A stretch of DNA of 64,000 nucleotides, from the NCBI GenBank assembly GCA_037974965.1, contig JBBPFI010000003.1:2418001-2482000 (forward strand), in the 5' to 3' direction. This stretch comes from Dacryopinax spathularia (lineage: Eukaryota; Basidiomycota; Dacrymycetes; Dacrymycetales; Dacrymycetaceae). Shown here one piece after another: positions 1,178 through 5,735 of the stretch (its first letter is position 1; every line of letters starts with the position of its first letter). The position numbers and the translations under genes are program-made. The notes below the pieces were generated by a model that was not told the origin of the DNA, made no database searches, and saw nothing but the letters and a program-made list of their open reading frames with translations.

Positions 1178-2787
1178 ATGGGCGCATGCATGTCCTCCGC
1201 AGGGCCCGTCTCGCCCGAGGACGAAGAGGCCCAAAAGATCAACAAGCAAATCGAGCGGGATCTCAAGGAGAAACAGCAAGAGATGGCCAAGGAAGTCAAG
1301 GTCCTCCTGCTCGGGTCGGGTGATTCGGGCAAGTCGACCATTCTCAAGGTTCGTCCCTCCCCCTCTGCACCATCCGCCACATTTCGTCGGACGAGGTGAC
1401 TGACGACGATGATGACAGCAAATGCGACTGATTCATCGGGTGCCGTTCACACCGAACGAGATTGAGAGCTTTCGTCAGCTCGTGTTCCAGAATTTGCTGG
1501 AGGGGATGCGGTTGTTGCTCGAGGCTGCGGAGCTGCTGGATATCAAGATTGGGCCCGAACAGCAGGTTCGTCTGATTGTCACTTAATCTATGGGCGGGTT
1601 ACTAATGAAGCGGTTATAGGACAACATCGCCATGATTGAGCATGCATCGGATTTACGAGACGAGCAGTCTTTCCCGCCAGAGTACCTTGAACCGCTGCAG
1701 ACCTTATGGAATGACCCACAAATTCAAAAGACGTATGAGCGTGGTAACGAAGTCGCTTTGCCAGAAAAGTACATCCTCACTATCACCACTACATACATGT
1801 TTCTGATAGACGCCGTCTAGCCTTTCATACTTCTACTCTAACCTCCCTCGTCTCTTTGCCGCCGACTTCAAGCCCACCGAACAAGACATCATTCGCTGCC
1901 GAGCACGAACGATCGGTATCCAGCAAACGCAGTTCAAGCTCAAGGGTCACACATTGCACATGATCGACGTCGGCGGGCAGAAGAGCGAGCGCAGGAAATG
2001 GATCCACTGTTTCCAGGATGTGACGACTATCTTGTTCCTTGTCAGTCTGAGCGGGTATGATCAGTGCTTGGTGGAGGATAAGGATGCGGTGAGCCCCTAG
2101 ATCGCTTCCACCCGCATTCGAAAGTTCCTGACGATAGCCAAGAACCAAATGCTTGATGCTATGGCTATCTGGGACTCCATCTGCCACTCGCAATGGTTCA
2201 AGCAGACATCACTCGTTCGTCATTCAAATAAATAGTTGCTATATGCGCTCATGTCAGCCCAGATTCTGTTCCTGAACAAGGTCGATCTGTTCGAGGAGAA
2301 GGTCAAGACATCCCCCATCAAGACGTTCTTTGCCGACTACGAGGGTCCAGAAGGGGACGCCGAAGCGGGCAAGGAGTACTTCAAGAAGCGATTCGTCAAG
2401 CTATCTGTGAAGAGCAACCGGGTGAAGGAGCGAGAGATCTATACACAGTGCGTGACAGAACCTCATACCCTTTGCTACCGTCGCTTACAGCTGCTGCTTC
2501 AGCTTTACGAATGCTACGGATACCGAACTACTGCGGGTCGTCATGGCCGCTGTAGAAGGTACGCTCTGTCGTCGTTGCTCGTTGTCGTGTGCTGACCTCC
2601 GTCGTAGAGTACGTCCTTCCCTCTGATTATTGTCTTCTTCCAGGTTCCTTCTTTCCTTTCTTGTCTCCGCGCACCTGCCTTCAAGCTCGCTTTTGCCCTC
2701 CCTTCGCACGCACATGCCGGACCCGAGCTCACGGTCGCTTCAAGTACCGTTCTCCGAACAAACCTCACCAAGGCTGCGCTCATCTGA
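1178..2787 (+). CDS. Heterotrimeric G-protein alpha subunit
   Basis: GTP-binding alpha subunit that relays receptor signals (nutrient or pheromone sensing in fungi) at the plasma membrane. The start MGACMSS has the myristoylation Gly2 and a nearby Cys for acylation. Visible motifs: P-loop GSGDSGKST, switch I RARTIGI, switch II DVGGQKSERRKW, NKVD box (FLNKVDLF), FTNATDT and a C-terminal tail ending NLTKAALI. Reconstructed exons: 1178-1348, 1419-1565, 1620-1768, 1821-2088, 2143-2214, 2263-2447, 2503-2558, 2608 (one base), 2745-2787, giving about 363 residues, the normal family length. The one-base exon is needed to join VVMAAVE to DTVLRTNL in frame and supplies the conserved Asp. In switch I the residue after the Mg-binding Thr is Ile rather than the usual Thr. 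Which fungal G-alpha class it belongs to (GPA1/2/3-like) cannot be settled by eye. Confidence 0.96.
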
Positions 2788-5735
2788 AACGGATGAGATT
2801 GCGCCTGCTTGTATATCCCCCCGGCTTCGACTGTACCATCACTACCACTACCACTACCCCTCCCACTCTCACTCACAGCAATACACCGACACTTTCGTTC
2901 CTCTGGCTATCGGCCCGCCTACGTTGGGTCCCCGTTGATTTCGATTTTCTGGCTTTGGCTTCGGCGCTCGCAGCCCGCTCTTCCTGCTTGCTGCGCCTGC
3001 GCCCTTCTTCCGCACCTTCCCTGGTCTCCCTTTTATCCCACATCTACCCCTGTCTTGTCGCGTATAACGTAATGGTCTCACGAGTCCGTTCTTTATTCTT
3101 ATCTCATGCAACTACTACGACAATTCCCTTGCCCTACCCGTCCCTCGGCGCGCTCTCGTCTCCGTGCTTCTCCTCCGAACAACCCGAAATCAAAATCAAA
3201 CCCGTGCTTGCCGCGCGGCTCGCATCGCGCAGTATGATCGTCACCAAGAATGTGAGAGTGTTCCACGCGGGATATGACGGACTGATGCCAATAACGGATC
3301 TGATGGCCAGATGCGCGGTATTCTCCTGTAATCTGTTGGCACACTCCGTCGGGCCCAACCTTCCTGCCGCAGATTGCCGCAGCGGACCTGGGTGTCCACC
3401 CCCGTCATAGCAAGCTTATTGGTCCCTGGGTGAGTGGAGCTTGTTCCTTCCTAGCCGAGCGGATGGACCTGGACTTATCTTCCCGTTTTAGATCGTGGAG
3501 AGAACCCTTGATGTCCCCATTTCCCATTGTCACACCCGCAGCGGCTTACCCCTTCCTTCCCCTTCTTCTGTACGGCTGTCCCATCTTTTTTCTCTTTTTC
3601 GCAGGCTCAAAACCGCATCTGGCGGCCCGTCTTCATATTCACCACACGGTCCGGACTGGCGAGGACGAACGAACGTGTTGCCATGATGATGACTTGATGA
3701 CGATCTTCTCGCCTCTATCCCGTGGCTCTTCCATTTTCCCATTTTTTCCCATGTTCACACCAGTCCACACTGCCGATCCCCCCCGTCTCACACCTGATTC
3801 CCTGATTCCCTGTGCCACAGTATGACCCCGTCCACGCGCTCAGTTGCATACGCTCACTTGTCCCTTGTGCTTGTATACTAATATGCATGTGTGGCGAAAT
3901 TCCATTTCCAAAGGCGGCTTCTTCCGTTAGGGCAGCAGCGGACCGTCCGAGACCGCGAGGCTATTTTTCTCGTGTCCTGCGCCTAACGGAAACGACGGGT
4001 CGAGCTTCAGCGCGGGATCAAGTGTGGGCCAGAACACGGGTTACGAGAAGGCAGCCGTCGCGATCGGGCGAACCAGGCAGCATGGGCGTTGCCACAAATG
4101 GAAACCGGCGGGAAGTTGATAATCAATAATCAACGCATCAAGATTGCGCAAAACCCGCAATTGACTCCCGAAACTGTTGCTGCGCGATATATTGGATATA
4201 TTTGGGGAGCCGGATACGTGCCCGCGCGAAGCCGACGGAAGTGAAGCTTTTGGAATTGCGGGCTCTCACGGTAATACGGAACATCCCTGTCGAACCCTTG
4301 CCAAGTCTGCCGAGACGGGTTGTAGACTGAACCTTGTTCACTGAGCTATCCACTCATGCTCGTTGCCCACCTAAGGCCAAGTGCAGCATGGACAGCACAA
4401 GAACTACAGAGAACAAAAAGCCGAAACACGACAGGGCGAACAGCCCGGATGTGGATAAGGTCGCCAAAAGCAAGAAATCTTCTCGCAACAGAATACGCGG
4501 GTATGTGGCCGTATACACGGGATTGCAGATCAACGGAACCCGCGTGTAGAAGCAAAGTGCTCTGATCCGCGGGGAGGGAACTCTTCGACCAACTGGCCCA
4601 ATATCGAGTCGTTGGGCGAGTTCTCCCGCTTACCGGTGTATTGGGACGGGTGGAGAGCTGTTTGGCTTTCTGATTGGCTCGGCTTGGTGGTCAGTTCGTG
4701 CTTCGGGTTGTGATGGTGAGCGCTTCGGCCGGGAGAGTCCCGTATGGAGGGGTGTGGGCCAATCATATGGCGGCTAAATGTGCGCTGCTGTTGTGGCAGC
4801 ACGATAAGTGTCCATCTCTTTCTGTCGCTGGGTGTCGCCCTCTTGGTTTCGACCACGCTTACTGTCTTGTTGTAACGCAAGAATGCTAGAGGACTAGTAT
4901 AAACATTCTGTGTAGCTCTGGCAACGCAGGCAAGTCGGAAGCGTTGTAACAGCTGCATGGGCTGGTTATGTTCGCATCAGCTGTCGACTCGAGCATAAGG
5001 GAGACGCACGTTTGATTTTCATTACGTCGAACCCAAGAAGACCGTATATTCCGCGTGCTCCACCGGAAGATATCGTCCTGCACCAGCGAATGACCATGCG
5101 AAAAATCAATGGAATAGCTGGAGTGGTGGAACATCAGCATTCGTGGTACTGCACGTCTCGTCTCGTACAGGCGGCATGTGTCTTTGTCAGACGAAGATCA
5201 AGGAGTTGTCTGATCCACGGAGTCCAATTTGCGGTCATCAGCAACGTTGCCCACCTTCGGACAAGGCAAGAACGATAGCGTGGAAGAACAGACGCCCAAT
5301 TCGCATATTCAGATCACAGTAAGCCTATTCGCTCAGTGCACAGCAATGGTATGTGGTTTGTCCAGCATCAGTATCTTGACGAGCGCATCAGAGGGAGGAA
5401 AGAGGCAAGGCAGGACCAGCGATTGACTGTTTCGTGTATGTGTCCACGGGCGGTGCACTGCATGATTGATTACAGCCACAGCGTTATTTTTATTTCCATA
5501 AGGTAAAAAGGTGGTAAATAATTCATGATGAAAGTGATGGTGAAACCACAAAGACTCAGGACTGATATGCTTAGGACTGATGACGCATCATCAGTTTCCG
5601 CATGTCGCGTGCACGATGACACCGACGCGTCCCCTAATTTACGACCCTGAGGTTGCCTCATTGTTGGCAGCCAGCATAGACCAGTCATTGGATATCAGAT
5701 CGTCTCTGGCGCCTGTTTTCTCTTGAACGATCAGC
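2788..5735. other. Gene-free stretch between G-alpha and TDP1
   Basis: About 2.9 kb without a supportable gene. The first ~1 kb is strongly pyrimidine-rich on the plus strand, which leaves long stop-poor frames with low-complexity Ser/Pro/Leu translations; it probably includes the G-alpha 3' UTR. The rest is of mixed composition with no recognisable RNA gene or repeat. An 18-nt hairpin-capable palindrome (5577-5594) lies about 140 bases before the TDP1 start. Confidence 0.4.

Follow-up and report, generated by a model that had tools for sequence, protein, structure and literature searches.

A probable one-nucleotide exon in a G-alpha subunit gene of the fungus Dacryopinax spathularia, with a second probable case in KRR1

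One-base exons mark the lower limit of splicing recognition, and those that have been published are mostly absent from genome annotations. A single-nucleotide exon in the Arabidopsis APC11 gene has been proven experimentally, and its function was demonstrated with reporter constructs (Guo and Liu 2015, PMC4674806). In plants more broadly, 1-nt microexons in APC11 and VPS55 are reported as conserved across land plants with support from RNA-seq and RT-PCR, as absent from annotations and, in VPS55, as having a conserved GTRAGT donor (PMC8831610). The one-base exon of CYP621A, described as the first for a fungal gene, is conserved in 20 Fusarium orthologues and covered by 18 SRA reads (PMC12940212). 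A single-base exon has also been reported in placozoan mitochondrial cox1. Among the titles and abstracts of open-licence papers that our literature searches retrieved, none described a one-base exon for a G protein, for KRR1 or for any basidiomycete gene.

Here we examine a window of 64,000 nucleotides from Dacryopinax spathularia (contig JBBPFI010000003.1, positions 2,418,001 to 2,482,000), in which a G-alpha subunit gene probably contains such an exon. The features are given below in window coordinates, with slashes marking splice junctions.

1178-2787, plus strand: coding part of the G-alpha subunit gene, 9 exons including the candidate one-base exon, 363 aa (joined-exon translation, Pfam, PDB)
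2503-2558, plus strand: exon 7, ending ...AAVE plus one base (G)
2559-2607, plus strand: intron 7a, 49 nt, GTACGC ... CTGAC, 12 nt to the acceptor, TAG
2592-2596, plus strand: CTGAC, branch-site candidate of intron 7a
2608, plus strand: candidate one-base exon, an A that forms the second position of the Asp codon G/A/T (parse enumeration)
2609-2744, plus strand: intron 7b, 136 nt, GTACGT ... CTCAC, 13 nt to the acceptor, AAG
2745-2787, plus strand: last exon, T/ACC... = TVLRTNLTKAALI and then the stop (translation)

The stop codon occupies 2785-2787, and the one-base-exon model has eight introns, with introns 4 and 5 at 2089-2142 and 2215-2262. Translation of the joined exons with A2608 included yields a product of 363 aa with the C-terminal ...VVMAAVEDTVLRTNLTKAALI, in agreement with the length of about 363 residues in the original prediction. 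This protein scored 410.9 bits against Pfam PF00503 (cut-off 48.8; profile positions 2-333 of 333), and it matched PDB G-alpha chains across residues 10-360, with an E value of 9.3e-93 for the best chain. All of the other six introns splice in frame. The P-loop, encoded at 1313-1339, reads GSGDSGKST, with Asp where five PDB alignments have Glu (GTGESGKST).

The junction coordinates proposed earlier for this gene were all exact. Exon 7 reads GTA GAA G up to 2558, with GTACGC directly after it; the last base of GTCGTAG is 2607 and the first of GTACGT is 2609, on either side of A2608; CAAG runs up to 2744 and T ACC GTT begins at 2745. A direct join of 2558 to 2745 is indeed out of frame, being short by exactly one base, and it was correctly stated that no other AG supplies the right phase: among the 8 AG sites in 2559-2800, the six up to 2743-2744 are in the wrong phase for the donor at 2559, while 2771 lies inside the last exon and 2796 beyond the stop. 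The branch site claimed for the first intron is present as the candidate CTGAC, 12 nt before the 2607 acceptor. A2608 is situated between an AG and a GT, and both of its neighbours are complete introns with donor, branch site and acceptor.

This arrangement resembles that of APC11, in which one A also lies between AG and GT and is required for the frame, and whose authors prefer a successive removal of both introns, as is proposed here; the differences are that APC11 is a plant gene and that its intronic stretch is 422 nt in all (PMC4674806). Some plant lineages make alternative transcripts with and without the APC11 and VPS55 exons (PMC8831610), in contrast to the constitutive exon proposed for G-alpha. 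The Fusarium case is fungal and likewise concerns a mid-codon base inside a conserved motif, and its intron interval of 139 nt in F. graminearum exceeds twice the median; the base is a G, however, and the protein is a P450 rather than a G protein (PMC12940212). In stwintrons, which are known in fungi, adjacent introns also force a sequential removal, but the inner intron splits a splice motif of the outer one, with zero exon bases between them, whereas one would have to be kept in G-alpha (PMC6616335, PMC5639578). We rejected the stwintron as a candidate, as removal of 2559-2744 without a retained base is out of frame and gives an altered 413-aa product. The comparisons support the placement of the putative G-alpha exon in a known, very rare class, and the KRR1 case described below strengthens it. 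APC11 had been put forward as the precedent; it holds as a reported one-base exon, while the implied uniqueness was overstated, since VPS55 in plants (PMC8831610) and CYP621A (PMC12940212) have been described as well.

Splice sites were scored with a strict set of 36 introns, which had been identified in 315 kb of the genome by frame and motif, without RNA, at lengths of 42-75 nt. The set is small and approximate; it replaced an iterative splice-site model that had drifted to false introns. For training, one intron of the G-alpha gene itself was dropped (n=35). The strict introns (n=36) had a minimum length of 45 nt, a median of 54 nt and a 5-95% range of 47-64 nt, with a median branch-to-acceptor distance of 12, GTACGT as the commonest donor (8/36) and AAG acceptors in 6/36. 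The donors of introns 7a and 7b both outscored all 35 training donors. The signals of intron 7a are textbook: its length of 49 nt falls inside the 47-64 range and its acceptor ranked 24/35. Intron 7b is long for the genome, with 1 of 41 introns in the 135-149 bin in a search up to 158 nt, and its AAG acceptor is modest (8/35) but has a precedent in the same gene, being forced by the frame in intron 4. In that intron (2089-2142) a TAG five bases upstream of the AAG is passed over, perhaps because no more than roughly 6 nt separate it from the branch-site A.

We enumerated the parses in which one or two GT-AG introns of at least 35 nt, with donors in 2511-2744 and acceptors no further than 2774, leave exon 7 in frame with the stop at 2787. 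Among the 109 parses obtained, the one-base model ranked at the top with 37.3, followed by 22.4 for the runner-up, in a score that contains an ad hoc branch-site term. The helix AAVEDTVLRTNLTKAALI was intact in the one-base parse alone; three others gave proteins of equal length with an altered helix. To preserve the length with a single intron, 185 nt would have to be removed; among introns of this size with their first base in 2535-2579, none had GT-AG, GC-AG or AT-AC ends. In all four paralogues in the genome for which the C-terminus was read, excluding two weaker G-alpha-like matches not read to their ends, exactly 13 residues follow the D/E position, as in the one-base model, and the PDB G-alpha chains in the five alignments read were gapless across AV-x-DT and the last exon. 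All five also have the Asp that the original prediction expected from G/A/T. Any base at 2608 restores the frame, so that an A giving Asp is an extra one-in-four match. The Pfam score discriminates little: three rival gene models reached 407.0, 406.3 and 408.7 bits and ended at 329-331, a small margin of 2-5 bits for the one-base model. If A2608 is skipped by joining 2558 to 2745, the product is a frameshifted protein of 413 aa with a foreign tail and without the normal C-terminal helix. Parses, paralogue lengths and PDB homologues thus all indicate that A2608 is needed both for the frame and for the conserved motif.

The frequency of such an arrangement by chance was estimated from 20,000 dinucleotide shuffles of 2559-2744, in which the single base had to lie 40 nt or more from either end. 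By itself, AG-N-GT was common (5451 shuffles), while CTNAY-N6-14-YAG-N-GTNNG occurred in 51, of which 7 had A as the base and 4 a GTRNGT donor, the criteria having been chosen post hoc with the site already known. An earlier run with slightly different trimming gave 49, 11 and 2.

We also scanned both strands of 29.2 Mb of the genome for the composite CTRAY N6-14 YAG N GTRCGT. This yielded 27 occurrences with one base and 27 with two, as compared with 71 and 39, respectively, for the backward-pattern controls, and two further composite patterns gave 9 (backward control 16) and 55 (control 34) matches. In the absence of genome-wide enrichment, the composite is not a general feature. We examined 22 of the 27 occurrences, the G-alpha site included, and few of these resemble exons: two are probable one-base exons as judged by the conserved protein, 19 were read by eye, a weak test, with nothing convincing, and one further site is without a suitable donor. 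Six of the sites of the pattern with 55 matches were examined by eye and none looked real, and at the single site inside the window of the pattern with 9 matches the acceptor is absent. Among 22 looser composites within 315 kb, 5 had both a donor and an acceptor suitably spaced, and the one-base join was open in all five; an open frame is thus not discriminating by itself, and the case depends on the conservation of the protein. An automatic coding score favoured a one-base insert at 7/22 sites and was too weak to judge them; it also missed the two candidate exons, choosing zero bases at G-alpha and, at KRR1, the right introns with two bases.

The genome-wide composite scan led to the KRR1 site, which is new in this analysis and is a second probable one-base exon.

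C1:1486188-1486079, minus strand: probable one-base exon of KRR1 at C1:1486133, CA/C/TGG between 55-nt and 54-nt introns

The gene was identified by the Pfam KRR1 KH1 domain (108.7 bits), and its peptide KPWDTDDIDHWKVDKF... aligned to KPWDTDDIDKWK... of PDB KRR1, with a best E value of 9.7e-21. The coding sequence reads GAT ATT GAC CA, a 55-nt intron, C, a 54-nt intron and TGG AAA. Among three in-frame parses, the one-base model gives DDIDHWK (DDID-H-WK), and both of its donors are GTACGT, with CTGAC at 12 nt and CTAAT at 13 nt. The single-intron rival has a donor, GTCCTC, that scores below all 35 training donors, and it adds one residue. In the three alignments to PDB KRR1 that span the site, a single residue likewise separates D from W (K, K and G), although the His of the model is unlike the residue of the PDB chains. 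KRR1 of the same genome thus probably carries a second one-base exon, and with this second case the fungus seems to tolerate the arrangement.

Given the parsing, the four paralogues, the PDB homologues, the shuffles and the second gene, the one-base-exon interpretation of the original prediction is supported, and we estimate a probability of roughly 0.88 that A2608 is a constitutive one-nucleotide exon of the G-alpha gene. The main rival is an assembly or sequencing error, whereby exon 7 or the last exon would lack a base and 2559-2744 would be an ordinary intron of 186 nt. In favour of such an error, the direct join is one base short and the outer donor is strong, and the region is single-copy in the assembly according to a DNA search, so that there is no allele for comparison. 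On the other hand, there is no homopolymer longer than two at the junctions, and an intron of 186 nt would be more than three times the median of 54 nt (from a set searched up to 75 nt). An error would also leave unexplained an intron-like unit of 49 nt with YAG-A-GTACGT exactly where an A is needed for Asp, when CTNAY..YAG-A-GTNNG arose in just 7/20,000 shuffles. Moreover, KRR1 shows the same pattern, and chance assembly errors would account poorly for the two genes together. Taken together, we consider an error to be unlikely.

The use of another splice-site pair with a variant helix, such as 2552-2727, 2581-2744 or a longer internal exon, has the 109 in-frame parses with one or two introns to draw on. 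We judge it very improbable, as the donors of the two single-intron options that were scored (GTAGAA and GTTGTC) fall below all 35 training donors and the resulting proteins replace or lengthen a helix of constant length across the four paralogues and the PDB homologues. Even less credible, to the point of being nearly negligible, is that the gene is frameshifted and decaying, or that the 413-aa form represents its natural C-terminus. The skip product is open for 413 aa, but the other six introns are in frame, the PDB match extends over residues 10-360, and the exact C-terminal helix and the stop are kept downstream, which would be unexpected if they were unused.

Short introns in fungi are generally considered to be the units of recognition. 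By such intron definition, the spliceosome would take each of the two flanking introns as a unit. The acceptor of intron 7a and the donor of intron 7b are one base apart and could not be bound together, for which reason the introns are expected to be removed in turn; the sequential removal proposed earlier was a sound inference from this spacing. Intron 7a (49 nt) would probably be spliced first, because it is short and canonical, leaving AAGA/GTACGT as the donor for the 136-nt intron 7b. The reverse order would also be workable and would leave TAG/ATACC. In an intermediate that has lost only intron 7a, the reading frame continues without a stop as far as 3400 at the least, across what is presumed to be 3' untranslated sequence (window 2608-3400). 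No excess structure was detected when we searched for RNA structure that could bring the splice sites together (z-score 0.86). A recursive zero-base site in intron 7b (CAG/GTTCCT, 2643/2644) is less likely and not needed: every one of the 35 training donors outscores its donor, and the first half of the split would be 35 nt, as compared with a minimum of 45 nt in the strict set, for which the search began at 42 nt. An origin by tandem duplication of the exon-donor junction was not supported, the alignment score of 19 being reached by 2083/5000 shuffles. A bolder scenario, in which one-base exons recur in the fungal lineage and inclusion or skipping of the A switches the G-alpha product from a 363-aa protein coupled to a receptor to an uncoupled one of 413 aa, is at present a long shot.

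Two probable cases in conserved genes of one compact fungal genome would point to an arrangement that is less of an exception than the small number published so far implies. They would also offer a small and tractable system, consisting of a 49- or 55-nt intron, one base and a 136- or 54-nt intron, for overlapping splice sites that are used in turn. The gene models of this species for G-alpha and KRR1 probably contain errors at these joints.

Elsewhere in the genome, a helicase gene that we take to be of the RecQ-like family (C12:542080-542630, minus strand) contains an apparent microexon of 12 nt, encoding Ser-Ala-Phe-Gly, between two introns, as read by eye.
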